Assembly: GCF_018069625.1 (NCBI RefSeq)
Contig: NZ_CP072941.1
Span: 6,572,001-6,636,000 of the forward strand
Length of the DNA stretch: 64,000 bases
Source of the DNA: Streptomyces yatensis
Lineage (GTDB): Bacteria; Actinomycetota; Actinomycetes; Streptomycetales; Streptomycetaceae
Direction: 5' to 3'
The first letter of the stretch is position 1; each line of letters starts with the position of its first letter. The notes under the pieces were generated by a model, which saw only the letters and a list, made by a program, of their open reading frames with translations, was not told the DNA's origin and did no database searches. Shown here piece after piece: positions 10,501-49,800 of the stretch. Both the position numbers and the translations under genes were made by a program.

Positions 10501-13500
10501 ACGCGCACACCATCATCGAGCAGGCGCCGGACCCGGTTCCGGCTCTTCCGACCGCACCGGCGGCCGAGGCGCCCGAGCGGAACGGCCTCGACGGCCTCCT
10601 GCCGTTCGTCCTGTCGGCCAAGAACGCCGAGGCGCTGCGGGAGCAGGCCGCGCGGCTGCACACCCACCTCGCGTCGCGGCCGGATTCGGCGCCGCTCGAC
10701 ATCGCCCACGCCCTGGCCGTCGGCCGCGCCGCCCTGGAGCGGCGTGCGGTGCTGACCGTCGGCGACCGGGACGAGTTGCTGCGGTCGCTCGACGCCCTGG
10801 CCCAGGGTGAGTCCGCCTCGGGTGTGGTCGAGGGGGCGGTGGCCGAGGGCAAGGTGGCGTTCCTGTTCACGGGGCAGGGGAGTCAGCGGCTCGGTATGGG
10901 CCGTGAGTTGTACGACGCCTATCCGGTGTTCGCGGATGCGCTGGATGAGGTGTGTGCGCATCTGGATCTGTATCTGGAGCGGCCGCTGCGGGATGTGCTG
11001 TTCGGGGATGACGCGGACGTACTGGACCAGACCGGGTTCACTCAGCCCGCCTTGTTCGCGGTCGAGGTGGCGCTGTTCCGGCTGGTCGAGGCATGGGGTC
11101 TGACGCCGGACTTCCTCTCCGGGCATTCGATCGGTGAGCTGGCCGCCGCGCATGTGGCGGGTGTGCTCTCGCTCGCGGATGCGGCGAAGCTGGTTGCTGC
11201 GCGTGGTCGTCTGATGCAGGAGCTTCCGGCCGGTGGCGCGATGATCGCGGTGCAGGCGGCGGAGGACGAGGTCGAGCCGCTGCTGACCGAGCGCGTCGGC
11301 ATCGCCGCGCTCAACGGGCCGACCTCCGTGGTCATCGCGGGTGACGAGGACGCGGCTCTGGAGATTGCCGCGTCGTTCGAGGCGCAGGGCCGGAAGACCA
11401 AGCGGCTCACCGTCAGCCACGCGTTCCACTCGCCGCGTATGGATGGGATGTTGGACGCGTTCCGTGCGGTGGCCGAGGGGCTGTCGTACGAGGCCCCGCG
11501 CATCCCGATCGTCTCCAACCTCACCGGTGCCGTCGTCTCCGCCGAGGAGATCACCAGCCCGGACTTCTGGGTGCGCCACGTCCGCGAGGCGGTCCGCTTC
11601 CTCGATGGCGTCCGCACGTTGGAAGCCCAGGGTGTGACGACCTTCGTCGAACTCGGCCCCGACGGCGTGCTCTCCGCGATGGCGCAGGAGTGCGTGACCG
11701 GCGAGGACACCGCCTTCGCCGCCGCGCTGCGCAAGGACCGCCCCGAGGCCGAGGCGCTGCTCTCGGCCGTCGCGCGGGCGCATGTCCGTGGGGTGACGCC
11801 GGACTGGGCGGCCGTCTTCGCCGGTGCGGGCGCCGCCCCCGTGGACCCGGCCGAGCTGGCTGTGTTGCCCACCTATCCCTTCCATCGACAGCGCTACTGG
11901 CCCAGCGCCGCCGCCCTCGCGGCGGGCGACCCCGAGTCGATCGGGCTGGGTGACATCGACCATCCGCTCCTCGGCGCGGCCGTCGCGCTCGCCGACGCCG
12001 ATGGACTCCTGCTCACGGGTGTGCTCTCCATCCGTACGCACCCCTGGCTGGCCGACCACGCGGTCATGGGCACCGTGCTGCTGCCCGGTACGGCCTTCGT
12101 CGAGCTGGCCGGCGCCGCGGGCGCCCAGGTCGGCTGCGAGCGGCTGGACGAACTGACCCTGGAAGCCCCGCTCGTGCTGCCCGAGCACACCGGGGTGCGG
12201 GTGCAGCTCGTGGTGGACGGGCCGGATGAGTCCGGCCGCCGTTCCTTCAGCCTGCATTCGCGTCGGCAGGACGCGCTGGGGACCGAGCCGTGGACGCGCC
12301 ACGCCACCGGTGTGCTCGCGCCCGGCGCCCGGATCGCCGCGTCCGGCGAGCCCGATGAGCTGGCCGTATGGCCGCCGCAGGATGCGACCCCGATCGCGGT
12401 CGAGGGGCTGTACGAGGAGCTGGCCGGGGCGGGTCTCGGCTACGGGCCGGTGTTCCAGGGGCTCAAGGGCGCCTGGCGGCTCGGCGAGAACCTCTACGCC
12501 GAGGTGGGCTTCCCCGAGGACGCGCCGCTGACGTCGGGCGCCGAGGCCGAGCGGTTCGGGCTGCACCCGGCCCTGCTGGATGCCGCGCTGCACGTCATCG
12601 GCCTCGACAGCGCCGACCGCGAGGCGGCGCTGGCCGAGGGCGCGCTGCTGCCGTTCGCCTGGAACGGCGTGCAGCTGCACGCGGCCGGGGCCGGTGCGCT
12701 CCGGGTGCGGCTGTCCGAGCGGCCGTCGAACGCGGTCTCGCTGCTGGTGGCCGACGGCACGGGCCGTCCGGTGGCCACGGTCGAGTCGGTGGCGCTGCGG
12801 GCGGCCTCCGCCGACCAGGTCCGCGCGGCGCGCGGCGGGCTGCACGAGTCGCTGTTCCGGCTGGACTGGACGGCGGTTCCGGCGCCCGCGACCGGCGCGG
12901 CCACGGGCGACTGGGCGGTGCTCGGCGCCGATGCCGGTCAATTGGCTGCGTTGGAGGGCGCGTTCGGGCCGGGGATCCGGCTCGCCGCGTACCGCGATCT
13001 GTCGGTGCTGCGGGCGGCGGTGGACGCCGGGGCGTCCGCGCCCGACACCGTCCTGCTGGCCGGTGCCGCTGTGGGTGAGGGCGCGGCGGCCGTGTACGAG
13101 GCCACGCAGACCACCCTCGCCCTGCTCCAGGAGTGGCTGGCCGATGAGCGGTTCGCCGCGTCGCGGCTGGTGCTGCTGACCCGGGGCGCGGTGGAGACCG
13201 CGCCGGGGGCGGGCGTGGCGGATCTGCCGTACGCCGCCGTGCGCGGGCTGTTCCGCTCCGCGCAGTCGGAGAACCCCGGCCGCCTGGTGCTGTTGGACGT
13301 GGACGGCGAGGAGGGCTCGTACCGTACGGTGCCCGCCGCGCTCGGCGTGGACGAGGCGGAGCTGGCGCTGCGCGCGGGCGTGGCGCTCGCGCCCCGGCTG
13401 GCCCGGGTGCCGGTCACCGAGAACACCGCTGTCACCGCTGCCACCGACGCGGGTACCGCCACCGACGCGGGTACCGCCACCGACACGGGTACCGCCGCCG

Positions 13501-16500
13501 CCCCGTCGTACGACCCCGACGGCACCGTACTGATCACCGGCGCCACCGGGACCCTCGGCGGTCTCTTCGCCCGCCACCTCGTCTCCGCCCACGGCGTACG
13601 GCGGCTCCTGCTGGTCAGCCGGCGTGGCGCCGATGCCGACGGCGCCGGGGAGCTGGCAGCCGACCTCACGGCGGCCGGTGCCACCGTGACCTGGGCGGCC
13701 TGCGATGTGGCCGACCGCGACGCGCTCGCCGCGACCCTGGCCGCCCTCCCGGCCGAGCATCCGCTGACCGCCGTGGTGCACACGGCGGGTGTCCTGGACG
13801 ACGGCATCCTGGGCTCGCTGACGCCCGAGCGCATAACCCGCGTCATGCGCCCGAAGGTGGACGCGGCGCTCAACCTGCACGAGCTGACCCGTGACCACGA
13901 GCTGTCCGCGTTCGTGCTGTTCTCCGGTGCCGCCGCCGTGTTCGGCGCGCCCGGACAGGCGAGCTACGCCGCCGCCAACTCCTTCCTGGAGGCGCTGGCC
14001 CAGCACCGCGTGGCCCAGGGGCTTCCGGCCACCGCGCTGGCCTGGGGCCTGTGGGGCGGTGCGGGCATGGGCAGCGGTCTCGACGAGGTCGATCTGCGGC
14101 GCATCGCGCGCGGTGGGGTCGCCCCGATCGCCGCCGACGAGGGGCTCGCGCTCTTCGACGCGGCCCGCGCCGACGGCGCCGCCGTGCTCTTCCCGATGCG
14201 GCTCGACTACGCGGGGCTGCGCACCGAGGCCACGGCGACCGGCACCGTCCCGGCGCTGTTCCGCGGCCTGGTGCGGACCCCGGTCCGGCGGGCCGCCGCC
14301 GCGACCGTCACCGCCGACGGCTCCTCGCTCGCCCGGCGGCTGGCCGGGCTCGCCCGGCCCGAACAGGAGCGTGAGCTGCTGGAGTTGGTGTGCGGCCGGG
14401 TCGCCGCGGTGCTCGGTTACGCGGGCCCGGACGCGGTCGAGGCCGGGCGGGCGTTCAAGGAGCTGGGCTTCGACTCGCTCACCGCCGTCGAACTCCGCAA
14501 CGACCTCAAGACCGTCACCGGGCTGCGGCTCCCGGCCACGCTCGTCTTCGACTACCCGACCCCCACCGCCCTGGCCGGTCATCTGCGCGAGGAGCTGCTG
14601 GGCGCCGAGGAGACCACGGCGCCGCTCGTCCCCGTGCGGACCGGCGCGGCCCCGGCGGTCGACGACGACCCGATCGTCATCGTCGGCATGAGCTGCCGTT
14701 TCCCCGGCGGGGTGCGCACCCCGGAGGAGCTGTGGGAGCTGGTCGCCACCGGTGGCGACGGCATCTCCGGCTTCCCCGTGGACCGTGGCTGGGATCTCGA
14801 CGGTCTGTACCACCCGGACCCCGACCACGCGGGCACCTCGTACACCCGCGAGGGCGGCTTCCTGCACGACGCGGCCGACTTCGACCCGGACTTCTTCGGC
14901 ATCTCGCCGCGTGAGGCACTGGCGATGGACCCGCAGCAGCGGCTGCTGCTGGAGACGTCGTGGGAGGCGTTCGAGCGCGCGGGCATCGACCCGGCGACCG
15001 TGCGGGGCAGCAAGACCGGCGTGTTCGCGGGCGTCATGTACCACGACTACGTGACGGGGCTGGATGGCATCCCCGACGGTGTCGAGGGCTACATCGGCAC
15101 CGGCAACGCGGGCTCCATCGCCTCGGGCCGGGTGGCCTACACCTTCGGTCTGGAGGGCCCGGCGGTCACGGTCGACACGGCGTGTTCGTCGTCGCTGGTG
15201 GCCCTGCACTGGGCGATCCAGGCGCTGCGCGCGGGCGAGTGCACCATGGCGCTGGCCGGTGGTGTGGCGGTCATGGCCACCCCCGAGACGTTCATCGACT
15301 TCAGCCGTCAGCGCGGCCTGGCCACGGACGGCCGGTGCAAATCGTTCGCGGCGTCGGCGGACGGCACGGGCTGGGCCGAGGGCGCGGGCATGCTGCTCGT
15401 GGAGCGCCTGTCGGACGCTCGCCGCAACGGCCACCCGGTGCTGGCCGTCGTGCGAGGCTCGGCGATCAACCAGGACGGTGCGTCGAACGGTCTGACGGCG
15501 CCCAACGGTCCGTCTCAGCAGCGCGTCATCCGGCAGGCGCTGGCCGCCGCCGGGCTGTCGACCGGCGATGTGGACGTCGTCGAGGCACATGGCACGGGTA
15601 CGACGCTGGGTGACCCGATCGAGGCGCAGGCGCTGCTGGCCACGTACGGCCAGGAGCGGGATGGGAACCGGCCGTTGTGGCTGGGCTCCATCAAGTCCAA
15701 CATCGGTCATACGCAGGCCGCCGCCGGTGTCGCGGGCATCATCAAGATGGTGCTGGCGATGCGCCACGGTGTGCTACCGCAGACACTGCACGTGGACGCG
15801 CCCTCGGCCAACGTCGACTGGGAGGACGGCGCGGTCGCGCTGCTCACCGAGCGGATGGAGTGGCCGGAGACCGGCCGTCCGCGCCGCGCCGGTGTGTCGT
15901 CGTTCGGCATCAGCGGCACCAACGCGCACACCATCATCGAGCAGCCGCCGGCCACCGAGGACCATGAGGCGGGGGCGGCGCTGCCCGCCGCCGTACCGCC
16001 GGTGCTGCCGTGGCCGCTGTCGGCCGTGGGCCGGGACGCCCTGCGCGACCAGGCCCGCCTGCTACGCGACCGGCTGCGTTCGGCCGACTCCGCTGACGAG
16101 GACGTGGACCTGGCCGCCATCGGCTACACCCTGGCCGCCGGGCGCACCACCTTCGAGAACCGCGCGGTGCTGGTGGCCGACGGCCACGAGGGCTTCCTGC
16201 GCGCCCTGGAGGCCCTGGCCTCCGGCGAACCGGCCACGGGCCTGGTGCAGGGCTCGCCGGTGGCCGGGAAGCTGGCCTTCCTGTTCACGGGGCAGGGGAG
16301 CCAGCGGCTGGGGATGGGGCGTGAGCTGTACGACGCCTATCCGGTGTTCGCGGAGGCGCTGGACGAGGTGTGTGCCCACCTGGACGCGCATCTGGAGCGG
16401 CCGCTGCGGGAGGTGCTGTTCGGCGACGACGCCACGACTCTGGACCGGACCGGTTTCACCCAGCCCGCGCTGTTCGCGGTCGAGGTGGCGCTGTTCCGGC

Positions 16501-24265: not shown

Positions 24266-27200
24266 GTGGCTAGCGCGAACGAAGAGAAGCTTCTCGACAA
24301 TCTGAAGTGGATGACCACTGAGCTGCGCCGGGCCCGTCGCCGCCTGACCGAGGTGGAGGCGGACGCGCAGGAACCGATCGCGATCACCGCGATGAGCTGC
24401 CGGTTCCCCGGTGGCGTCGGTTCGCCCGAGGACCTGTGGCACTTGGTCGCGGAGGGCGGTGACGCCATTTCCGGATTCCCCGCCGACCGCGGCTGGGACA
24501 TCGAGGGGCTGGCCGATCCGGACCCCGACCGCAAGGGCACCTTCTACAACAGCGGCGGCGGATTCCTCGACGGCGCCGCCGAATTCGACCCCGCGTTCTT
24601 CGGCATTTCGCCGCGCGAGGCCCTGGCCATGGACCCGCAGCAGCGGCTGCTGCTGGAAACCTCCTGGGAGGTTTTCGAACGCGCGGGAATCGACCCGACC
24701 TCCGTCAAGGGCAGCCGCACCGGCGTCTATGTGGGCGCCTCGGCGATGGGTTACGGCTCGGACGTTTCGGGCGCGCCGGAGGAGCTGGAGGGGCTGCTGC
24801 TCACCGGCGGCGCCACCAGCGTGCTGTCCGGCCGTATCGCCTACACCTTCGGCCTGGAGGGCCCGGCCGCCACCATCGACACGGCCTGCTCGTCGTCGCT
24901 GGTCGCCCTGCACTGGGCGGCCCAGGCGCTGCGGCAGCGCGAATGCTCGCTCGCCCTCGTCGGCGGCGTCACCGTGATGCCCAACCCGGACGTCTTCGTG
25001 GAGTTCAGCCGCCAGCGCGGCCTCGCCCCCGACGGCCGCTGCAAGTCCTTCGCCGCCTCGGCGGACGGCACCGGCTGGTCCGAGGGCGTCGGTGTGCTGC
25101 TGGTCGAGCGGCTGTCGGACGCCCGCAAGAACGGTCACCCGGTACTCGCGGTCGTGCGTGGCAGCGCGGTGAACCAGGACGGCGCGTCGAATGGTCTGAC
25201 GGCGCCGAACGGCCCGTCGCAGCGCCGCGTCATCCGCCAGGCCCTGGAGAACGCCCGGCTGTCCGCCGCCGAGATCGACGTCGTCGAGGCGCATGGCACG
25301 GGTACGACCCTGGGTGACCCGATCGAGGCGCAGGCGCTGCTGGCCACCTACGGCCAGGAGCGGCCCGAGGGCCGGCCGCTGTGGCTGGGCTCGCTCAAGT
25401 CCAACCTGGGCCACGCCCAGGCGGCGGCGGGTGTCGCGGGCGTCATCAAGATGGTCATGGCGATACGCCACGGCATCCTGCCCAAGACCCTCCACGTCGA
25501 CCAGCCGTCCCCGACCGTCGACTGGTCGGCGGGCGAAGTGTCCCTGCTGACCGAGGCCCGCCCCTGGGACGAGACCGGCAGGCCGCGCCGGGCCGGCATC
25601 TCGGCCTTCGGCGTGAGCGGCACCAACGCCCACACCATCCTGGAGCAGGCCCCCGAGCCGGAGGCCGAGGAGCCGTCGGCCACGGACGGGGACGCCACCC
25701 CGGCCCCGGTCGTCACCGCCACCGTGCTGCCGTGGGCCCTGTCCGCCGGAAACGCGGCGGCGCTGCGCGACAACGCCCGCCGCCTCGCCTCCCACCTCGA
25801 CCGCCACCCCGCCCTCGGCGCCACCGATGTGGCCTATTCGCTGGCCACCGGCCGGGCGGCGCTGGAGCGTCGTGCGGTGGTCGTGGGCGAGGACCGCGCC
25901 GGGCTGCTGTCCGGGCTGGAGGCGCTGGCGCGGGGGGAGTCCGCGCCGGGGCTGGTCCAGGGTGTTGTCGCCGAGGGCGAGCTGGCGTTCCTGTTCACGG
26001 GGCAGGGCAGCCAGCGGCTGGGGATGGGGCGTGAGCTGTACGACGCCTATCCGGTGTTCGCGGAGGCGCTGGACGCGGTGTGTGCGGAGCTGGACCCGCA
26101 CCTTGAACGGCCTGTGAAGGACGTCCTGTTCGGGGACGATGCCGAGGCGCTGGACCGGACCGGTTTCACCCAGCCCGCGTTGTTCGCGGTCGAGGTGGCG
26201 CTGTTCCGTCTCGTTGAGGCGTGGGGTCTCAAGCCCGACTATCTGTCGGGGCATTCGATCGGTGAGCTGGCCGCCGCGCATGTGGCGGGTGTGCTGTCGC
26301 TGGCGGATGCGGCGAAGCTGGTGGCGGCGCGTGGCCGTTTGATGGAGGAGCTTCCGGCCGGTGGCGCGATGATCGCGGTGCAGGCGTCGGAGGACGAGGT
26401 GACGCCGCTGCTGGCCGAGCGGGTCGGCATCGCCGCCCTCAACGGGCCCACTTCCATCGTCATCGCAGGCGATGAGGACGCGGCGCTTGAGATCGCGGCG
26501 GGCTTTGAGGCGCGGGGTCGGAAGACCAAGCGGCTCACGGTCAGCCACGCCTTCCACTCGCCGCGTATGGACGGGATGCTGGAGGCGTTCCGGCAGGTGG
26601 CGCAGGGGCTGTCGTACGAGGCTCCGAAGATCCCGATCGTGTCGAATCTGACCGGTGGCGTGGTGTCCGCCGACGAGATCACGACCGCTGACTTCTGGGT
26701 GCGCCACGTCCGCGAGGCCGTCCGCTTCCTCGACGGCGTCCGCACCCTTGAGGCCAAGGGTGTCACCACCTTCATCGAGCTGGGCCCGGACGGTGTGCTC
26801 ACCGCGATGGCGCAGGAGTGTGTGACCGACTCCGCGTCGGACGCCGCGTTCCTCTCCGCGCTGCGCAAGGACCGTCCCGAGGCCGAGGCGCTGACCACCG
26901 CCATCGCCCGCGCGCAGGTGCGCGGTGTGACGGTGGACTGGGCCGGGTTCTTCGCCGGTCGGGGCGCGGAGCAGGTGGATCTGCCGACGTACGCCTTCCA
27001 GCACGAGCGGTTCTGGCTGGAGCCGGGTGCCGGCTCGGTGGGCGATGTGGCCTCTGTGGGGCTGGAGTTGGCCGGACACCCGTTGCTGGGTGCGGCGGTG
27101 CCGCTGGCCGAGACCGATGGGCTGGTCTTCACGGGTCGGCTGGGTGTGGATACGCATCCGTGGCTGGCCGACCATGTGGTGCGGGACACGGTGGTGCTGC

Positions 27201-30200
27201 CCGGCACCGCGTTCGTGGAGCTCGCCGTGCGCGCCGGTGACCAGGTCGGCTGTGACCTGCTCGACGAGCTGACCCTGCACGCCCCGCTGGTGCTGCCCGC
27301 ACGCGGTGGCGTCCGGCTGCAGCTCACGGTGGGCGCGCCCGACGGCGCCGGACGGCGGTCCCTGACCGTGCTGTCCCGCGCGGAGGACGCCCCGGCCGAG
27401 GAGCCGTGGACGCGGCACGCCGACGGTGTGCTCGCCTCGGGCGCGCCCCGGCCGTCGTTCGCGCTGACCGCGTGGCCGCCGCAGGACGCCGAGGCGGCCC
27501 GTACCGAGGAGCTGTACGCGGCCCTCGCGGACGGTGGTCTGCGGTACGGCCCGGTGTTCCAGGGGCTCACGGCCGCCTGGCGGCGCGGGGACGAACTCTT
27601 CGCGGAGGTACGGCTGGAGGAGTCCGCCGCCTCCGACGCGCAGGCGTACGGACTGCACCCGGCGCTGCTCGACTCGGCGCTCCACGCGCTCGGCATGGAC
27701 GGCCCGGGCGACGGCGAGAGCCAGGGCGGGCGGCTGCCGTTCGCCTGGAGCGGTGTGTCGCTGTACGCGAGCGGCGCCTCGGCGCTGCGGGTGCGGCTGG
27801 TGCTGCGGGGCGCGGACGGGGTCCGGCTGGAGATCGCGGACTCGGCCGGTGCGCCGGTCGCCGCCGTGGACTCGCTGGTCCTGCGCGCCGTGTCGGCGGA
27901 GCAGGTGCGGGCCGCGCGGGCGGCGTACCACGAGTCGCTGTTCCGCGTGGAGTGGACCGAACTCCCGGCCGCAGCGGGCGCCGGCGCGCCCGGCGGCAGC
28001 CGGTGGGCGGTGCTGGGCACGGATCCGTTCGGGTTGGGTGCTACGGCATACGCGGACCTCGCGGAGCTGGGCGAGGCCCTCGATTCCGGCACGGCGCTGC
28101 CGGAGTACGTAGTGGTGTGCCCGGCACATCAAGCCCGTCCGGGCGTGCATGCGGACGGCGCGGCATCTGAAGGCCCGGGTGCGGCAATTCAAGCCCGTCC
28201 GGCGATTGAGGACACGCCCGAAGGGCGTACCCACCCGCACGCGGACGGCGCGGCACTCGAATGCCGGGGTGCGGCATCTCCAGCGCGTTTTGAGGACCGG
28301 GGCCAAGGGGCGGAGCCCATTGTTTCGGGAAGGGGCGGGGTGGGGGAAAGCCCCTCGCCCGCCACCACGGCGCATCAGGCCACCACCCAGGTGCTGGGGC
28401 TGCTCCAGCAGTGGCTGGCCGACGGCCGCTTCACGGACTCACGTCTGGTCCTGCTGACCTCGGGGGCCGTGGCCATCGAGGCCGGTGAGCCGGTGGTGGA
28501 CCTCGCGGGCGCCGCCGTCCAGGGGCTGCTGCGCACGGCGCAGGCCGAGAACCCGGACCGCTTCGTCCTGCTGGACACCGACGGCCAGGACGCGTCGTTC
28601 GCCGTGCTTCCGGCCGCGCTGGCGGCGGGCGAGGAACAGCTCGCCGTCCGTGCGGGCGTGGCCCGTATCCCGCGGCTGGCCAGGGTGCCGGTCGCGGAGG
28701 AGACGGCGGCCACCAAGGACGCCTTCGACTCCGAGGGCACGGTGCTGGTCACCGGCGCCTCCGGTTCGCTGGGCGGGCTCGTGGCCCGGCATCTGGTGGC
28801 CGAGCGTGGCGTGCGGCACCTCCTGCTGGTCAGCCGCCGTGGTGGCGAGGCCCCGGGTGCGGCCGAACTCGCCGCTGAGCTGGCCGAGTTGGGTGCCCAC
28901 GTGGCGTGGGCGGCCTGCGATGTGGCGGACCGGGACGCGCTCGCCGCGGCCCTCGCCACCGTCCCCGCAGAGCATCCGCTGACCGCCGTGGTGCACACCG
29001 CCGGTGTGCTGGACGACGGTGTGATCGGCTCCCTCACCCCCGAGCGCGTCGACCACGTCATGCGTCCGAAGGTGGACGCGGCCTGGAACCTCCACGAGCT
29101 CACCCGCGGCCTCGATCTGACGGCCTTCGTCCTGTTCTCCTCCGCCTCGGGTGTCTTCGGCACCCCCGGCCAGGGCAACTACGCGGCCGCCAACGCCTTC
29201 CTGGACGCCCTCGCCGCACACCGCCGCGCCGAGGGCCTTCCGGCCGTCTCGCCGGCCTGGGGCCCCTGGGCGGGCGCCGGTATGGCCGGTGGCCTGGACG
29301 AGGCCGACATCAGCCGGATGCGGCGCGCCGGACTGCCGCCGCTGTCCCCGGCCGAGGGCCTGGCGCTCCTGGACGCCGCGCTCGCCACGGACGAGGCGGT
29401 GCCGGTCCCGATGCGCGTGGACGCCGTGGCGCTGCGCGCCCAGGCCGCGGCGGGCGCGCTCGCGCCGCTGCTGCGCGGGCTGGTGCGGGTCCCGGTGCGC
29501 CGCGCGGTGGACGCGGCCGCGGGCGGCGGTTCCGCGCTGGCGGAGCGGCTGGCCGGGCTGAGCGCGGCCGAGCAGGACCGGCTGCTGCTGGACCTGGTCC
29601 GTACGCAGGTGGCGGCCGTCCTCGGCTATGCGGGCCCGCAGGCCGTGGAGGAGGGCCGGGCCTTCAAGGACCTGGGCTTCGACTCCCTGACCGCCGTCGA
29701 ACTGCGCAATCTGCTGCGCGAGGCGACCGGGCTGCGGCTGCCGCCCACGCTCGTCTTCGACTACCCCACCTCGACCAGCCTGGCGGGCCATCTGCGCGAG
29801 GAGATCGTCGGGGAGGCGGCCGACGCGATCGTCCCCGACCGGGTGATCAGCGCGGTGGACCGCGACGACCCGATCGCGATCGTCGCGATGAGCTGCCGCT
29901 TCCCCGGCGGTGTGCGGTCGCCCGAGGAGCTGTGGCAGCTGCTGGTCGACGGTGACGACGCCATCACCCCGTTCCCCGCCGACCGCGGCTGGGACCTCGC
30001 CACCCTCTACAGCGACGACCCCGACCTCGAGGGCACCAGCTACACCCGCGAGGGCGGCTTCCTGCACGACGTGGCCGACTTCGACGCCTCGTTCTTCGGC
30101 ATCTCGCCGCGCGAGGCCCTGGCCATGGACCCGCAGCAGCGGCTGCTGCTGGAGACCACCTGGGAGGCGTTCGAGCGGGCCGGGGTCGACCCCGCGTCCC

Positions 30201-33200
30201 TGCGCGGGAGCCGTACCGGCGTCTACATCGGCTCCAACGACCAGGACTATCTGACGCTGTGGCTGAACGAGCCGCAGGGCCTCGAAGGCCACCTCGGCAC
30301 CGGCAACTCCTCCAGCGTGGCCTCCGGCCGGCTCTCCTACGCCTTCGGGCTCGAAGGCCCGGCGGTCACCATCGACACGGCGTGCTCGTCGTCGGTGGTG
30401 GCGCTGCACCTGGCCGCGCAGGCGCTGCGCAACGGCGAATGCTCGATGGCGCTGGCCGGAGCCGTCACGGTCATGTCGACACCGGGCGCCTTCCTGGAGT
30501 TCAGCCGGCAGCGCGGATTGGCCGCCGACGGCCGGATCAAGGCGTTCTCCGGTGACGCGGACGGCACCAACTGGGCCGAAGGCGTGGGCCTCTTCCTGGT
30601 GGAGCGGCTCTCCGACGCGCGCAAGAACGGCCATCCGGTGCTCGCCGTCCTGCGCTCCACCGCCATCAACCAGGACGGTGCGTCGAACGGTCTGACCGCG
30701 CCCAACGGCCCGTCCCAGCAGCGCGTCATCCGCCAGGCCCTCGCCAACGCCGGTCTGTCGGCCACCGACATCGACGTCGTGGAGGCCCACGGCACCGGCA
30801 CGACGCTGGGCGACCCGATCGAGGCGCAGGCGCTGCTGGCCACCTACGGCCAGGACCGGCCCGAGGACCGGCCGCTGTGGCTGGGCTCGGTGAAGTCCAA
30901 CATCGGCCACACCCAGGCCGTGGCGGGCGCCGCCGGCATCATGAAGATGGTCATGGCGATGCGCCACGGTGTGCTGCCGCGGACCCTGCACGTCAGCGAG
31001 CCGACCCCGCACGTCGACTGGTCGGCGGGCGACATCGAGCTGCTGACCGAGGCCCGGCCCTGGCCGGAGACCGGCCGTCCGCGCCGCGCGGGGGTGTCGT
31101 CGTTCGGCTTCAGCGGCACCAACTCGCACGCGATCATCGAGCAGGCCCCGGCCATGGACACGGTCGCCGCGCCCGCTCCGGAGCGGTCCCTGCCCGTCCT
31201 CGCCTGGCCGGTCTCGGGCCGTACCGAGGACGCGCTACGGGCCCAGGCCGCACGGCTGCGCCCCTCCGTGGACGCCTTCGTGGGCGCCTCCGGGGACACC
31301 GGCGCCGACGGGCCGCGCCCGCTCGACCTCGCCTACTCCCTGGCCACCTCCCGTGCCGCCCTGGAACACCGGGCCGTGGCGCTCGGCCGGGACGGCGGCA
31401 TCCTCGGCGAGCAGCTCGCGGCACTGGCCGACGGGCGCGGCGCCACGGGGCTCATCGAGGGCTCGGTGACCGGTGGCAAGCTCGCCTTCCTCTTCACCGG
31501 GCAGGGCAGCCAGCGGCTGGGGATGGGGCGTGAGCTGTACGACGCCTACCCGGCGTTCGCGGACGCGCTGGACGCGGTCTGCGCGGAGCTGGACACCCGC
31601 CTTGAACGGCCTTTGCAGGACGTGCTGTTCGGGGACGACGCCGAGGCGCTGGACCGGACCGGCTTCACCCAGCCCGCGCTGTTCGCGGTCGAGGTGGCGC
31701 TGTTCCGGCTGGTGGAGGCGTGGGGGCTGAAGGCGGACTTCCTGTCGGGCCACTCGATCGGTGAGCTGGCCGCCGCGCATGTGGCCGGTGTGCTGTCCCT
31801 CGCAGACGCGTGCACGCTGGTGGCCGCGCGGGGCCGGCTGATGCAGGAGCTGCCCGCCGGTGGCGCGATGATCGCCGTCCAGGCGTCGGAGGACGAGGTG
31901 ACGCCGCTGCTCAGCGAGCGCGTCTCGATCGCCGCGCTGAACGGGCCGGCGTCGGTGGTCATCGCGGGTGACGAGGACGCGGCTCTGGAGATTGCCGCTG
32001 GTTTCGAGTCGCAGGGTCGTAAGACCAAGCGGCTCACCGTCAGCCACGCCTTCCACTCGCCCCGCATGGACGGCATGTTGGACGCGTTCCGTGAGGTGGC
32101 GCAGGGGCTGTCGTACGAGGCTCCGCGCATCCCGATCGTCTCCAACCTCACCGGTGCCATCGTCTCCGCCGAGGAGATCACCAGCCCGGACTTCTGGGTG
32201 CGCCACGTCCGCGAGGCGGTCCGCTTCCTCGATGGCGTACGGGCGTTGGAAACCCACGGCGTCACCACCTTCGTGGAGCTGGGCCCCGACGGCGTCCTGA
32301 CCGCCATGGCCCAGGAGTGCGTCGCCGACGCCGAGGTGGCGGGCTTCGCCGCCGCGCTGCGCAAGGACCGCCCCGAGGCCGAGACCCTCACCGCCGCGCT
32401 CGCCCAGGCGTATGTCCGGGGCGCCGAGGTGGACTGGGCCGGGTACTTCGCCGGGACCGGCGCCCACCGCGTCGACCTGCCGACGTACGCGTTCCAGCGC
32501 CGCCGCTACTGGCCGGAGTTCGCCCTGGAGACCGGAACCCCGGCCGAGGGCGCGGTGGACGCGGTGGACGCGCGGTTCTGGGAGGCCGTGGAGCGCGAGG
32601 ACTGGGAATCGCTCGCCACCGAGCTGCGGGTCGAGGGCGACCAGCCGCTCAGCGCGGTGCTGCCCGCCCTGTCGACGTGGCGCCGCACCCAGCGCGAGCG
32701 GTCCGCCGCCGACGGCCACCTCTACAACGTGGTGTGGAAGCCCCGTTCGCAGGGTCCGTCGGGCTCCCCGGCCCCGGCCGGCACCTGGCTGACCGTCGTC
32801 CCCGCACACCACGCCGACGACCCGCGGATCACCGCCGTGGCCGAGGACCTGACGCGGCGCGGGGTGCGGATCGTCCGCGTCGAACTGGACGCCACGGACA
32901 CCGACCCCGCGGCCGTGGCCGCCCGCCTCGCCCAGGCGTCGGCCGACGGCCCGGTGGCCGGAGTGCTCTCCCTGCTGGCGCTGGACGAGCGGCCGCACCC
33001 GGAGCATCCGGCGGTGCCGGTCGGCCTCGCGCTGACCGGTGCGCTGGCCGAGGCGCTGGCGCTGCCCGGGTCTCCGGCGCCGCGGGGCGAGGACGCCCCG
33101 GCGCGGCTGTGGTGCGCCACCCGGGGCGCGGTCGCGACCGGCGGCGCCGACCGGCTGGACAGCGCGACCCAGGCCCAGGTCTGGGGCTACGGCCGGGTCG

Positions 33201-34777
33201 TGGCCCTGGAGCAGCCCGAGCGCTGGGGCGGTCTGGTCGATCTGCCGGAGACCCTGGACGAGCGGGCGCTGGACCGGCTCGCGGCCGTGCTCGCCGGGGC
33301 CGACGACGAGGACCAGGTGGCGATCCGCGCCACCGGGGTCTTCGTACGCCGCCTCGTCCCGGCCCCGCGCGACGCGGCCACCGCCGCCGCCGAGCCCTGG
33401 ACGCCGCGCGGCACCGTGCTGGTGACCGGCGGCACCGGCGCCCTGGGGCGGCATGTCGCCCGCTGGCTGGCCCACCACGGCGCGGAGCGGCTGGTGCTGC
33501 TCAGCCGCCGGGGCCCCGACGCGCCGGGCGCGGCCGAGATCGTGGCCGAACTCTCCGGCACCGACACCGCCGTGACCGTCGAGGCATGCGATGTGGCCGA
33601 CCGCGACGCGCTCGCCGCGCTCGTGGAGAAGCTGGCCGCCAACGGCACCCCGGTGCGTGCCGTGGTGCACTCGGCCGGGATCTCCCAGGAGCCCGGCACC
33701 GGCACCGAACTCCCCGAGTTCGCCCGGATCGTGGCGGCCAAGACCACCGGGGCGGTCCACCTCGACGCCCTCTTCGGCGAGGACGCCGAGCTGGACGCCT
33801 TCGTGCTCTTCTCCTCGATCGCCGGGGTGTGGGGCAGCGGTGGCCAGGGCGCGTACGCGGCCGGAAACGCCTTCCTCGACGCGCTGGCCGAACAGCGCCG
33901 GGCCCGCGGGCTCACCGCCACCTCCGTGGCCTGGGGCCCGTGGGCGGAGGGCGGGATGGCCGCCGAGGGCGACGCGGAGGAGCAGCTGCGCCGCCGTGGA
34001 CTGCCGCCGATGGCACCGGAGCTGAACATGGTCGCCTTCCAGCGGGTGCTCTCCCGCGAGGAGACGGCCGTGACGGTGGCCGATGTCGACTGGGAGCGGT
34101 TCGCCCCGGCCTTCACCGCCGCCCGCCCCCGCCCGCTGATCGACGATCTGCCGCAGGTCGCCAAGGCCCTGCGGGGCGGCGGCGAGGCCGAATCGGCCGA
34201 CACGGCGGCGGCCGACGGCGCCTCCGCGCTGCGCGAGCGGCTCGCCCAACTGGCCGTGGCCGACCGTAAGGACGCGGTGCTGGAGGTGGTCCGCAGCCAT
34301 GTGGCCACCGCCCTCGGCCACGCCTCCGCCGACGAGGTCGGGGCCGGACGCGCCTTCAGCGAGCTGGGCTTCGACTCGCTCACCGCGGTCGAACTGCGCA
34401 CCCGGCTCGGCGCCACCACCGGCCTCAAGCTGCCCGCGAGCCTGGTCTACGACTACCCGACACCGGCCGCGCTCGCCGAGCATCTGCTGACCGAGCTGAT
34501 CCCGGACGGACCCGGCCACGGCCCCGGCAACGCCCCCGCCCATGTGGACACCGATCCGCAGGACGCCGAGCTGCGCCGCACCCTGGCCACCATCCCGATG
34601 GGGCGGATCCGGGAGGCGGGGCTGCTGGACACGCTGCTCCGGCTGGCCGATCCACAAGCAGCCACTTCCGATCCCAGCCGCGTCGAGGACGAGGCGGAGT
34701 CCATCGACGAGATGGACGTCCAGCACCTCATCGACATGGCGCTCGACCTCGACAGCCTCGACGGCAACGATTCCTGA
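24266..34777 (+). CDS. Modular type I polyketide synthase, two modules (F, G)
   Basis: 3503 residues, GTG start behind a strong ribosome binding site, TGA at 34775. Residues 1-35 form a charged helical N-terminal docking domain ([15 protein letters not shown]...). Module F: KS (Cys 208), AT (FTGQG about 577, Ser 664), DH (about 932-1212), KR (NADPH site about 1496), ACP (Ser 1807). Module G: KS (Cys 2040), AT (Ser 2497), KR (Trp 3189, Tyr 3197), ACP (Ser 3371). Both ATs are malonyl type (GHSIG, HAFHS). Module F should yield an alkene; G, with an A-type KR, a hydroxyl. Residues about 1286-1370 are an in-frame insertion derived from a non-coding Streptomyces repeat. The C-terminal tail, with [11 protein letters not shown] and a final [11 protein letters not shown] helix, is a docking type different from that of gene 1 and matches the start of gene 3. 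Confidence 0.98.
24371..29815 (+). other. PKS module F: KS-AT(malonyl)-DH-KR(B-type)-ACP
   Basis: KS about 24371-25655, Cys 24887. It reads KSNLGHA where most modules have KSNIGHT; the His is retained. AT Ser 26255, HAFHS 26546-26560 (malonyl). DH about 27060-27900 has His 27173 and the variant HxxxDxxxxP (27173-27202), YGPVFQG, and DSALH with Asp 27671. The structural KR half (about 27940-28700) is enlarged by a repeat-derived insertion at about 28121-28375. KR has LDD 29009-29017 and Tyr 29180; ACP Ser 29684. Predicted product is an alkene. Confidence 0.92.
28121..28375 (+). repeat. In-frame insertion of a Streptomyces-type intergenic hairpin repeat inside module F
   Basis: The stretch interrupts the structural KR half between EYVVV and the [10 protein letters not shown] helix. 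Modules C, H and L have only a short loop here. It holds AAGCCCGTCCGGCG followed by ATTGAGGAC (28191-28213), then a perfect 6-bp stem ACGCCC-GAA-GGGCGT (28214-28228), GGGGCGGAGCCC, and GGGAAGGGGCGGGG. I know these modules as a common repeat in Streptomyces intergenic DNA. A 90-bp internal direct repeat is seen: the 15-mer GCGGACGGCGCGGCA occurs exactly at 28151 and 28241. The frame stays open. Confidence 0.8.
29867..34505 (+). other. PKS module G: KS-AT(malonyl)-KR(A-type)-ACP
   Basis: KS about 29867-31145, Cys 30383, with several departures from its neighbours ([23 protein letters not shown]). AT Ser 31754, HAFHS 32045-32059 (malonyl). Post-AT helical element present. KR lacks LDD ([10 protein letters not shown]) and has Trp 33830 eight residues before Tyr 33854, so A-type. 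ACP Ser 34376. Predicted product is a hydroxyl with the same configuration class as module E. Last module of its protein. Confidence 0.92.
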
Positions 34778-37800: not shown

Positions 37801-40800
37801 TGCCCGTCCGCGGTGGCGTCCGGCTGCAGGTCACCGCCGGTGCGCCGGACGACGCCGGGCGTCGTTCGTTCACCGTCTCCTCGCGCCCGGAGGACGCCGC
37901 CGCCGACACGGCGTGGGTGCGGAACGCGAGCGGTGTGCTCGCCACCGGCGCCCCCGGCCCGTCGTTCGACCTGGCCCAGTGGCCGCCGACCGCCGCAGAG
38001 GCGATCGAGCCCGACGCGCTCTACGCCCGGCTGGCCGAGGCCGGGCTGCGGCACGGCCCGGGGTTCCAGGGGCTCACGGCCGCCTGGCGGCGCGGGGACG
38101 ACCTCTTCGCCGAGGTCCGGCTGGACGACGACGTCAAGCCCGGCGCCGAGGAGTTCGCCGTACACCCGGCGCTGCTGGACGCCGCCCTGCACGCCCTCCA
38201 CGGCCGCGAGGGCGCCCAGCTGACCGATGTCTGGCAGGGCGTCCGGCTGTACGCGGAGGGCGCGTCCGCGCTGCGCGTACGGATCGCGCCCGCCGGAGCC
38301 GACACCGTGACCCTGGCGCTCGCCGACGCCACGGGCGAGCCGGTCGCCGCCGTTGACGCGCTGCGCTGCCGTCCGCTCCCCGACGACCTCACCGGCGACA
38401 CGGACGTGGCGCGGCAGAGCCTGTTCCGGCTCGACTGGGTGGCTCCGCAGACCGCCTCCGCCGGTCCGGACGCCGCCACCCGCCGTATCGTCCTGGGCGA
38501 GGACCCGTTCGGCCTTGTCCCGGCCGGAGTGGCCGCCGCCTCCGCCCCCGACCTGGCCGCGCTGGGCGCGTCCGTCGAGGCGGGCGACACCGCCGCCCCG
38601 GAGCTGGTCCTCGCGTCCTTCGCGCCCGCCCCCGGCGGCCCGGACGAGGACGTGGCCGAGGCCGCGCACCGGGAGGCGCGGCGTGCGCTGGCCCTGGTGC
38701 AGGGCTGGCTGGCCGATGAGCGGTTCGCCGACGCGCGCCTGGTGGTCGTCACCCGGGGCGCGATGGCCGCCGACGCCGAGGAGGGCGTCACCGACCTGGT
38801 GCACGCGCCCCTGTGGGGTCTGGTGCGCTCCGCCGAGACCGAGAACCCCGGCCGCTTCGTCCTCGTGGACGTCGATGAGACCGCTGGGGCGGCTGGCGTC
38901 GCCGGGACCGCCGAGACCGCCGGGACCGCCGAGGTCGTCTGGACGGCTGGCGCCGCTGGGTCCGACGAGGCGGCTGGCGCCGCTGGGTCCGACGAGGCGG
39001 CTGGCGTCGCCGGGGTCGCCGGGACGGCTGAAGCCGCTGGGACGGCTGGCGCCGCCGACGTCCCCGGCACCTTCGCCGACGCGCTCTCCGACGCCCTGGC
39101 CACCGGGGAGCCGGAGCTCGCCCTGCGCGCGGGCCGTGCCCTCGCGCCCAGGCTGGCCCGTGCCTCGGCACCGGCCCTTGCCTCGGTCCCGGCCTCGGGC
39201 TCGGTCCTGACGCCGGGTTCCGGTTCGGCCCCGGGCTCGGCCCAGGCCGGGGAAACCGGTTCCGCGACCGCCGCCCCGGCGTTCGACGCCGACGGCACCG
39301 TGCTCATCACCGGCGGCACCGGCGCCCTGGGGCGGCTGCTCGCCCGCCACCTGGTCGCCGAGCACGGCGTACGCCACCTCCTGCTGACCAGCCGCCGTGG
39401 CGCGGACGCCGACGGCGCCACCGAGCTGGTCGCCGAACTCCGCGAGCGCGGCGCCGAGGTCACCCTCGCCGCCTGCGACGCCGCGGACCGCGACGCGCTC
39501 GCCGCGACCCTGGCCGCCATCCCGGCCGGGCATCCGCTGACGGCCGTCGTGCACACCGCCGGTGTGCTGGACGACGGCACGGCCGCCGCCCTGACGCCCG
39601 AGCAGCTGGAGAGGGTGCTGCGCCCGAAGGTGGACGCGGCCTGGAACCTGCACGAGCTGACCCGCGACCTCGACCTGTCCGCGTTCGTGCTGTTCTCCGC
39701 CATCGCGGGCACGCTGGGCGGCGCGGGCCAGGCCAACTACGCCGCGGCCAACGTCTTCCTCGATGCGCTCGCCGCCCACCGGCACGCGGCGGGGCTGCCC
39801 GCCACCTCGCTGGTGTGGGGCCTGTGGGCCCAGTCCGGCGGTATCACCGGCGATCTGACCGAGACCGATCTGCTGCGGCTGGCCCGCAGCGGGATGGGCG
39901 CCCTCACCGACGACGAGGGCATGGCGCTCTTCGACGCCGCCCGCCGCACCGGCCGGACCCTGCTGATCCCGGCCCGGCTCGACCTCGCGGCGCTGCGCTC
40001 CGCCGCCGGATCCGGCCCGGTCCCGGCGCTGCTGCGCGGGCTGATCCGCACGACCGGCCGGCGCACCGCCGCGGGCGCGCTCGCCGCCGGTTCGTCCCTG
40101 GCCCAGCGGTTGCGCGCGCTCTCCCCGAACGAGCGCCGCCGGACGCTGCTCGACCTCGTGCGCGGCCATGTGGCCACGGCCCTCGGCCACGCCTCCGCCG
40201 ACGCCATCGAGGCCCGCCGCGCCTTCAAGGAGCTGGGCTTCGACTCGCTCACCGCCGTCGAACTGCGCAACCGGCTCTCCGCCGCCACCGGGCTCAAGCT
40301 GCCGTCCACGATCGTCTTCGACCACCCGAACCCCACCGTCCTCGCCGACCATCTGCGCGCCGAACTCATCGGCCTGGACGTCGAAGGGACCGAGGTCGAG
40401 GCCGAGCAGACGGACCCGGCGTTCCCCGCCACCGCCGCCTCCCTCGCCGACGACCCGATCGCCATCGTCGCGATGGGCTGCCGCTACCCCGGCGACGTGC
40501 GCTCGCCCGAGGACCTGTGGCAGCTCGTGGCCACCGGCTCGGACGCCATCACCGGATTCCCCGTCAACCGCAACTGGGAGAGCCAGTGGGCGGCGGACGG
40601 CGACGAGGCCGACGCGGCCCCGTCCGACTACGCCCGCGCCGGTGGCTTCCTGCACGACGCGGACCTCTTCGACGCGGCCTTCTTCGGCATCTCGCCGCGC
40701 GAGGCCCTGGCCATGGACCCGCAGCAGCGGCTGCTGCTGGAGACGTCCTGGGAGGTCTTCGAGCGCGCCGGGATCGACCCGGACTCGCTCCGTGGCCGCT

Positions 40801-46800: not shown

Positions 46801-49800
46801 TGTTGTCGCTCGCGGATGCGGCGAAGTTGGTGGCGGCGCGTGGCCGTTTGATGCAGGAGCTTCCGGCCGGTGGCGCGATGATCGCGGTGCAGGCGTCGGA
46901 GGACGAGGTGGCGCCGCTGCTCGGTGAGCGTGTGTCGATCGCCGCGCTCAACGGCCCGACCTCCGTGGTCATCGCGGGTGATGAAGACGCGGCGGTGGAG
47001 ATCGCGGCGTCGTTCGAGGCGCAGGGCCGGAAGACCAAGCGGCTGACGGTGAGCCACGCGTTCCACTCGCCGCGTATGGACGGGATGCTGGAGGCGTTCC
47101 GTGAGGTGGCCGAGGGGCTGACGTACGAGGCGCCGAAGATCCCGATCGTGTCGAATCTGACCGGTGGCGTGGTGTCCGCCGAGGAGATCACGACCGCTGA
47201 CTTCTGGGTGCGCCACGTCCGCGAAGCGGTCCGCTTCCTGGATGGCGTCCGGACCCTCGAAGCGCGCAACGTCACCACGTTCATCGAGCTGGGCCCCGAC
47301 GGAGTCCTGACCGCGATGGCGCAGGAGTGTGTGACCGACGCCGGGCCGGACGCCGCGTTCGTCTCCGTGCTGCGCAAGGACCGTCCCGAGCCCGAGGCGC
47401 TGACCATGGCCGTGGCACGGGCGCATGTGCGCGGTGTGGCCGTGGACTGGTCGGCCTTCTACGCCGGGACCGGAGCCACCCGACTGGCGCCGGACGAGCT
47501 GGCCGAGCTGCCCACGTACGCCTTCCAGCGGCAGCGCTACTGGCCGAAGGTCTCGTCGCTGTTCCTCGGTGACGTGGCCGCGGTCGGGCTGGGCGAGGCC
47601 GAGCATCCGCTGCTCGGTGCCAGCGCCGAACTGCCCAGCGCGGACGGGATGTTGTTCACCGGACGGCTGGCGCTGTCCACGCACCCGTGGCTGGCCGATC
47701 ACACGATCATGGACACCGTGCTGCTGCCGGGCACCGCGTTCGTGGAGCTGGCGGTCCGGGCCGGTGACCAGGTCGGCTGCGAGGTGCTGGAGGAGCTGAC
47801 CCTCGAAGCGCCGCTGGTCCTGGCCGAGGACGGGGGCGTCCAGCTGCGGCTGTGGGTCGGCGCGGCCGATGACACCGGCCGCCGCCCGCTGGAGCTGCAC
47901 TCCCGGGCCGAACACCTGTCGGCCGAGGAGCCGTGGACCCGGCATGCGTCCGGTGTCCTGGCGTCCGGCGATGCGCCGGAGGCGTCCTTCGAGCTGACCG
48001 CATGGCCTCCGGCGGACGCCGCCGAGGTGGAGGTCGGCGACCGTTACGCCGAGCTGCGGGACGTCGGTTTCGCGTACGGCCCCGCGTTCCAGGGGCTGCG
48101 CAAGGCATGGCGGCGCGGTGGCGAGGTGTTCGCCGAGGTGGCGCTGGACGAGGACACGGCCGAGGAGGCCGCCGCGTTCGGGCTGCACCCGGCGCTGCTG
48201 GACGCCGCGTTGCACGCGCTCGGCCTGGCCGGGCTCGGCGGCACCGAGACCGAGGGGCGGCTGCCGTTCGCCTGGACCGGGGTGTCGCTGTACGCGAGCG
48301 GCGCGGCCACGCTGCGGGTGCGGATGGCCGCCGTGGGCGGCGACGGCGTCCGGCTGGAGATCGCGGACGCCACGGGCGCCCCGGTCGCGGCCGTGGACTC
48401 GCTGGTGCTGCGCCCGGTCGCGGCCGAGCAGCTGCGGAGCGCGCGGACGGCGTACCACGAGTCGCTGTACCGCGTGGAGTGGACGACGGCCGGGCTGGTG
48501 GACGCCACCGGGGCGGACGTTGCGACCGACGGCCGCTGGGCGGCGCTGGGCACGGACACGTTGGGGCTGGGCGCCCCGGCGTACGCGGACTTGGCGGCAC
48601 TGGGCGAGGCCGTCGATTCCGGCGTGGCGCTGCCGGAGTACCTAGTGGTGTCCCTGGCACACGAAGCCCATGTGGACGCGGCACTTGAAGGCCCAGGTGG
48701 GGCACATCAAGCCCGTCCGGCGATTGAGGACACGCCCGAAGGGCGTGCCGGGGCACCGGCCGGGACACTTGAAGCCCGTCCGGCGTTTGAGGGCCGGGGC
48801 CTTGGGGCGGAGCCCCACCACGCGGCGGAGCCGCATATTGATGCTGCGGGAAGGGGCGGGGTCGGGGAATCCCCCTCGCCCGCCACCACGGCGCACCAGG
48901 CCACCACTCAGGTGCTGGACCTGCTGCAGCAGTGGCTGGCCGACGACCGCTTCACGGACTCACGCCTGGTCCTGCTGACCTCGGGCACCGTGGCCACCGA
49001 GCCCGGTGAGCCGGTGACGGACCCGGCAGGCGCGGCGGTCCACGGTCTCGTGCGCTCGGCACAGTCCGAGAACCCGGACCGCCTCGTCCTGATCGACCTC
49101 GACAGCCACCACGACACACGGGCCGCACGATCCGCGCTGCCCACAGCCCTCGCAAGCGGGGAGCCCGAGGTCGCAGTGCGGCAAGGCGTCCTCAAGACCC
49201 CACGCCTGGCCCGCGCCGCGTCAACGGCCGACAGCGAGACGACGGAGTGGAACCCGGACGGCACGGTGCTGGTCACCGGCGCCTCCGGTTCGCTGGGCGG
49301 CCTGTTCGCCCGCCACCTCGTGGCGGAGCGCGGCGTACGGCAGCTCCTGCTGCTCAGCCGCCGTGGCGACCGAGCACCAGGCGCGACCGAACTCACGGCC
49401 GAGCTCACCGAGTTGGGCGCGAACGTGCGCTGGGCCGCCTGCGATGTGGCGGACCGGGACGCGCTCGCCGCGGCCCTCGCCACCATCCCCGCCGAGCATC
49501 CGCTCACCGCCGTCGTGCACACGGCAGGCGTGCTGGACGACGGCGTGATCGGCTCCCTCACCCCCGAGCGCGTCGAAACCGTCATGCGCCCGAAGGCGGA
49601 CGCGGCCTGGAACCTGCACGAGCTGACCCGCGACCAGGACCTCTCGGCGTTCGTACTCTTCTCCTCGGCCGCCGGTGTCTTCGGCGGCCCCGGCCAGGGC
49701 AACTACGCGGCCGCCAACGTCTTCCTGGACGCCCTCGCCCAGCACCGCGCCGCGCAGGGCCTGCCGGCCACCGCGCTGGCGTGGGGCCTGTGGGCCGGTG

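Follow-up and report, generated by a model that had tools for sequence, protein, structure and literature searches.

REP, BIME and REPIN sequences are dispersed extragenic hairpin repeats, built of units and often situated at the 3′ ends of genes. Rickettsia palindromic elements (RPEs; Ogata et al. 2000, 2002) are described in a review (PMC10969869) as short palindromic repeats that occur outside genes and also in frame inside them, in unrelated metabolic genes, where they add a peptide to the host protein.

Here we describe a composite repeat of the high-GC bacterium Streptomyces yatensis that is present outside genes (77 copies) and in frame inside a polyketide synthase (PKS) cluster (10 copies). 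As far as the description in the review allows a comparison, this combination resembles that of RPEs; the differences are that a single protein family and a single loop are concerned and that the element appears to have been copied between synthase modules. Since the insert was not found in unrelated host genes, we do not class it as a Rickettsia-type element. Dispersal, hairpins and a unit-built structure are shared with REP, BIME and REPIN sequences, and so is the frequent place at gene 3′ ends: of 76 classifiable copies, 43 are flanked by convergent and one by divergent genes, versus 15 and 14 among 87 adjacent pairs taken as background. The differences are that the repeat is a longer composite with a G-quadruplex-type unit, has coding copies and showed no linkage to a PF01797 transposase. 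As in intragenic minisatellites, the number of a 30-codon (90-nt) unit varies between orthologs and between modules, yet much of this unit can be traced to a repeat interspersed throughout the genome. A search of the open-licence literature gave no account of either the repeat or the PKS insert. Our reading, to which we assign a probability of about 0.85, is that a REP-like intergenic repeat was captured in frame long ago, was spread by duplication and conversion, and is tolerated more than functional.

The insert-bearing ketoreductase loop

The window, i.e. the whole stretch of 64,000 nt that was analysed, corresponds to positions 6572001–6636000 of the 10.36-Mb single-contig genome of S. yatensis. 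It falls in a giant cluster of nine long plus-strand frames (6571460–6714158), which we take from its domain motifs to be a type I PKS cluster; motifs of this kind gave 24 ketosynthase and 27 acyltransferase matches across it. Genes for AMP-binding and flavin amine oxidoreductase proteins flank the cluster (locus L044, 2495–5911); judged from sequence, they would be compatible with an amino-acid-derived starter unit. Azalomycin was considered as the product and dropped, as its synthase is described with nineteen extension modules (PMC5518293) versus the 24 and 27 matches found here.

The letters used for modules in a preliminary description of the window correspond to our labels as F = B1, J = C3, C = A3, H = C1 and L = C5, a mapping that we infer from module order. 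Module F and the module next to it make up the frame that opens the following list of features.

24266..34777, plus strand: open frame of 3503 aa, presumably a two-module type I PKS (from domain motifs), second of the nine frames
27938..28780, plus strand: KR (ketoreductase) structural half of module F, through the Rossmann motif of the catalytic half, placed by what we take to be KR motifs
28124..28372, plus strand: module F insert of 83 codons, a mosaic derived from the repeat and predicted to be disordered (KR alignment)
28130..28142, plus strand: truncated core unit CAAGCCCGTCCGG (motif scan)
28147..28198, plus strand: 90-nt (30-codon) unit, first copy of the repeated part (self-comparison)
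28160..28176, plus strand: spacer GCGGCATCTGAAGGCCC, of a type present at four places in the genome, all of them long PKS inserts
28191..28212, plus strand: full core unit AAGCCCGTCCGGCGATTGAGGA, coding for QARPAIED together with its neighbours
28214..28228, plus strand: ACGCCC-GAA-GGGCGT hairpin with a perfect stem, 3′ of the core (motif scan)
28237..28288, plus strand: 90-nt unit, second copy of the repeated part (self-comparison)
28280..28297, plus strand: degenerate third core, ARFED here versus ARPALED/ARPAFED in orthologs
28298..28318, plus strand: B unit CGGGGCCAAGGGGCGGAGCCC, containing GGGGCGGAGCCC at 28307–28318
28327..28346, plus strand: D unit, G-quadruplex-type run GGGAAGGGGCGGGGTGGGGG, within a GRGGVG-coding stretch
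48657..48893, plus strand: insert of module J (C3), homologous to that of module F and 79 codons long (KR alignment)
48709..48730, plus strand: first core unit within the module J insert, exact match (core search)
48772..48793, plus strand: second core unit within the module J insert, with 2 mismatches (core search)
48818..48862, plus strand: units C and D of the module J insert, matching an intergenic copy (chromosome position 4550791) exactly over 45 nt

The motifs named in the preliminary description, together with its perfect ACGCCC/GGGCGT stem, were all recovered by motif scan, with AAGCCCGTCCGGCG at 28191 and GGGAAGGGGCGGGG at 28327–28340. Its figure of about 85 extra residues at 28121–28375 is close to what the alignment gives, namely 83 codons with the boundaries listed above. 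The 90-bp internal duplication is likewise present: the segments 28147–28198 and 28237–28288 match over 52 nt with 81% identity at a spacing of 90. Core and hairpin of module F are identical to intergenic copy 7029011 over 37 nt, and the third core differs from its orthologs by two codons, in frame. The KR stretch that counts 281 residues in module F has 238 in module C and 237 in module L; the 306 residues of module H are due to an unrelated expansion.

We aligned 14 KR structural halves, taken from their start motif to be of DH type. The insert is present in seven of them (B1, C3, F1, F2, F3, H3 and I1, five of which sit outside the window) and absent from the other seven (A3, C1, C5, E2, F4, H1 and I2). 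The preliminary description was thus right that modules C, H and L lack the segment; its picture of module F as a special case does not hold, the insert of module J in the same window having been left out of its comparison. All seven inserts occupy the same loop in the same reading frame, between a strand (PEYVVV in B1) and the next helix. The inserts of F1–F3 are of a short form without the GRGG part. No insert was seen in ten KR domains of the other type; in module H2, the corresponding stretch is mostly ER sequence, and the search with the 22-nt core found no copy within it.

Tandem arrays of other kinds were met in KR regions of the same cluster. Module H (C1) carries a low-complexity 81-nt/27-nt array in another KR loop (window 38888–39041), which does not resemble the intergenic repeat. 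Module C (A3) has an 18-nt array coding for an ATDAGT-type peptide just 5′ of the KR Rossmann motif (window 13440–13520), and module I2, outside the window, shows a GQDTAN-type repeat expansion in the KR structural half (L014, ~15540–15645).

An AlphaFold2 model built with 19 KR sequences has a mean pLDDT of 78; the adjoining strand and helix score above 90, and residues 76–145, which belong to the insert, score below 50. In this the insert differs from the remainder of the model, which Foldseek matched to modular KR structures such as 2fr0. Residues K388, S411, Y425 and N429, which we take to be catalytic, are invariant in the 19 sequences. The model predicts an intact KR fold, and the insert is probably an exposed, disordered loop.

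The intergenic repeat and its homology to the inserts

With up to three mismatches allowed, a genome-wide search with the 22-nt core gave 87 matches, and one with the reversed pattern gave none. Ten of these matches are located in the seven PKS inserts. The surroundings of the other 77 were analysed with a purpose-written gene finder based on codon usage, and all 77 fell outside predicted genes, although predicted genes cover 80% on average of the 65 loci of ~5 kb around copies and 77–90% of six 20-kb control regions. The PKS copies outside the window lie within a predicted gene (7/7), and the three in the window lie in ORFs.

The element is a composite of the core (A), a stem B with GGGGCGGAGCCCC, frequently repeated, a stem C that is not always present and runs into CATATYGATGCTGC, and a G-rich unit D. 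Paired changes keep the core hairpin in the intergenic copies: CTCC/GGAG in 65 of the 77, GTCC/GGAC in eight and neither in four, one of which has a possible G-U pair. The ten PKS cores have GTCC/GGAC in nine cases and GTCC/GGGC in one. A G-quadruplex-type run follows on the same strand within 220 nt in 54 of the 77 intergenic copies, versus 12.5% of shuffles. Folding of six segments as RNA was not significantly better than that of shuffled sequences (z from −1.68 to 0.30), five loci compared with Rfam had no match up to an E value of 1, and none was obtained among plasmid records. As to a link with RAYT transposases, the genome has one PF01797 match, with no core in its 3.4-kb locus at up to six mismatches.

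Local clusters of three to four intergenic cores were observed at chromosome positions 3450877–3451005, 3965596–3965881, 6156133–6156383, 7011667–7011746 and 7373172–7373521, which suggests local amplification.

The seven inserts align to intergenic copies of their own genome over 944 of 1188 nt (module F, 172 of 249). Among 200 random PKS stretches of the cluster used as a control, ten aligned, with 0.7% of bases. The longest exact matches are 37 nt for B1, 45 for C3, 44 for H3, 25 for I1 and 26, 26 and 23 for F1–F3, versus 12–16 nt for flanks, and the C-unit variants of C3 and of H3 are both present in the intergenic pool. For about 20% of the insert DNA, and for 31% in module F, the intergenic pool of this genome gave no match. 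The inserts also differ from their surroundings in codon composition: GC3 in module F is 0.65 versus 0.91 in the flanks (Fisher p = 2e-7), and pooling the seven inserts, which are not independent of each other, gives p = 1e-22. The open frame is of a different standing. It does run through the insert, within the 3503-aa ORF, as the preliminary description said; the same 255-nt span, however, is open in the same frame in 40 of the 77 intergenic copies, and for this reason we dropped the open frame as evidence.

Homology alone is symmetric, so that PKS coding DNA might have escaped and given rise to the intergenic repeat. We regard this reverse direction as very improbable, given a GC3 of the inserts that is unlike coding DNA here, the wide distribution of the repeat and protein searches, limited by length and shared words, that hit PKSs only. 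Of 99 genomes of the order, 54 contain the exact pattern AGCCCNTCCGGCGNTTGAGGA, and all of these are Streptomyces (54/84; other genera, 0/15). A CAAG-type core is present in 37 of 150 genomes of the genus; S. yatensis has four exact copies, all in PKS. In six genomes picked from the 37, 40 of the 42 core copies examined lie outside predicted genes (copies were taken completely in four genomes, 4/5 in G043 and 1/3 in G083). The other two, each in a different streptomycete, overlap a predicted gene in its final part (L181 at 2452, L185 at 2506); a C-terminal extension into the repeat and an overrun of the gene finder are both possible. In genome G104, all nine copies are in long frames, which represent six KR structural halves with the same type of insert.

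The protein searches with insert sequence were limited by protein length and shared words. With the insert alone as query we obtained 31 matches, all 31 with PKS domain sets and, where an organism was named, from Streptomyces; a query of medium length gave one match, an 876-aa DH-KR fragment. An insert in unrelated genes was not found by the insert-only searches. The KR-region query yielded 1579 relatives among 1991 scored candidates, 120 of them listed.

Positions of repeat-type peptides were analysed in 134 proteins (P0001 and P0131 are those of the window itself), which were chosen by KR or insert similarity, a choice that leaves room for inserts at other sites. In this set, 168 of 194 repeat-peptide matches sit 60–260 residues before the KR Rossmann motif, and 48 modules in 44 proteins hold at least two such peptides before the motif. 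Reading of the remaining 26 matches assigned 16 to the same insert, in six proteins that terminate or become divergent ahead of the motif, and 10 to chance in other PKS domains. In one protein of S. violaceusniger (P0130, ~residue 3250), the sequence after the insert turns arginine-rich and then ends, perhaps owing to a frameshift in the assembly or the gene. The host species, judging by their names, presumably group around S. violaceusniger.

The preliminary description had counted two findings as arguments against a captured repeat: matches confined to PKS genes, and a similar segment in homologous modules of many species. The matches are not so confined; homologous inserts do occur in PKSs of other species, where this loop holds hypervariable mosaics built from the same units, and they leave the origin claim untouched.

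Copying between modules

The insert of C3 and that of H3, which lies 80 kb away, share 94% identity over 237 nt, while their flanks (nearest 450 nt on either side) are 60–72% identical. Compared in 30-nt steps from the insert start, the two agree at 203 of 210 positions and then at 21–22 of 30, with sharp edges; past the 210-nt tract, B1 and I1 become closer to C3. Confinement of the identity to the insert means that the cassette was exchanged by itself, and gene conversion would be the simplest mechanism, as far as it can be judged from sequence. C3-like modules elsewhere (in P0033, P0078, P0104, P0122 and P0132) bear other inserts. For F1–F3, module duplication explains the likeness, since the nearby flanks (86–96% identical in most 150-nt steps) are nearly as alike as the inserts (97–100%).

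A cassette that travels by itself could be kept as a DNA-level recombination landmark, which homogenises or shuffles PKS modules. The conversion-like tract, which spans most of the cassette, and the near identity of the F1–F3 inserts would fit; for F1–F3, however, plain module duplication suffices, and we consider a landmark role quite unlikely.

With one mismatch allowed, the genome contains the spacer type GCGGCAYYTGAAGGCCC only in B1, C3, H3 and I1 (the reversed control has two matches). Its presence in all four long inserts favours one capture followed by copying and lowers the odds of repeated independent entry. Still, an element that is mobile to this day and specific for its target may have entered the same KR loop several times. 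Several observations are compatible with this: upstream of C3, once the nearest 150 nt are passed, the flank resembles E2, which has no insert, more than it does the other three modules compared; the C and D units are identical to intergenic copies, with the same site used each time; and F1–F3 contain the short form only. Against these stand the 77 other copies, every one of which avoids predicted genes, the sole PF01797 locus with no core, and the spacer, common to the four long inserts only and included in the C3/H3 tract. The KR loop could have been hit more than once; repeated entry as the general explanation is unlikely, if slightly less so than a landmark role.

Drift, tolerance and meaning

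The frame is open through the B1 segment in S. endocoffeicus, S. iranensis, S. violaceusniger, S. rugosispiralis and S. antioxidans. These assemblies are independent and the S. yatensis genome is a single contig, so an assembly or sequencing artefact has a negligible chance of being the explanation. These five species lack the first tandem unit of B1, which S. javensis (P0023) has; the unit number thus varies.

Insert length varies as well. At the H3 position, it ranges from no insert (P0031, P0048, P0081 and P0100) to ~100 residues (P0008) in 16 proteins, which are the comparable ones among 22 putative orthologs chosen by length (one lacks the start motif and five a suitable KR); P0106 has an insert of ~127 residues at another module.

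For six B1 ortholog segments, the pooled pN/pS of the insert is 0.84 and that of the flanks 0.39. Single pairs, which are not independent, range from 0.28 to 2.52 in the insert and from 0.29 to 0.52 in the flanks. The high value for the insert is partly due to its low pS (0.084 versus 0.129 in the flanks). Gap columns in the 15 pairs number zero in three and 10–52 in 12 for the insert, and 0–3 for the flanks.

These data bear on the question of whether the insert, whatever its origin, is a functional KR part under selection, such as a linker, a docking element or a timing element. Its site and frame are fixed in many modules and species, GRGG is found in 33 of the 43 listed rows of the insert comparison (five rows being chance), and the G-rich run and stems could slow ribosomes. 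A functional part, on the other hand, would hardly be expected to be absent from 7/14 modules here and 4/16 H3-position domains elsewhere, to vary so widely in length, to lack GRGG in F1–F3, to reach the pooled pN/pS given above and to be predicted as disordered. We therefore hold this explanation to be about as improbable as a landmark role; on the sequence evidence, the peptide most likely has no function.

We thus prefer capture of an intergenic repeat. Homology, distribution, codon composition and weak constraint at the protein level all support the central claim of the preliminary description, that DNA of an intergenic repeat type became coding DNA in a megasynthase. A REP-like repeat would have entered the loop of the KR structural subdomain in frame, probably once, in a giant PKS of the ancestor of several Streptomyces species around S. 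violaceusniger. It would then have spread among modules via duplication and ectopic gene conversion, and may have been rearranged as 90-nt units were gained or lost and as sequence was exchanged with other copies. The insert is presumably translated as a disordered loop, which would persist because the loop tolerates it and not because the peptide has a function. Tentatively, one may go further and see in it a self-spreading coding cassette, whose repetitiveness recruits conversion from modules and intergenic copies and so continuously rewrites the peptide across the species group; we regard this as possible, with the odds somewhat against it.

Captured in this way, the insert would be a clear bacterial example, beyond Rickettsia, of repeat DNA that came to code for protein; donor family, landing site, copying between modules and loose drift can all be read from the sequence. 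Such inserts can mislead alignments of modules. Ectopic gene conversion in PKS clusters might be measured here in a natural setting, and a KR loop naturally loaded with ~30 to 130 extra residues would be useful for PKS engineering.
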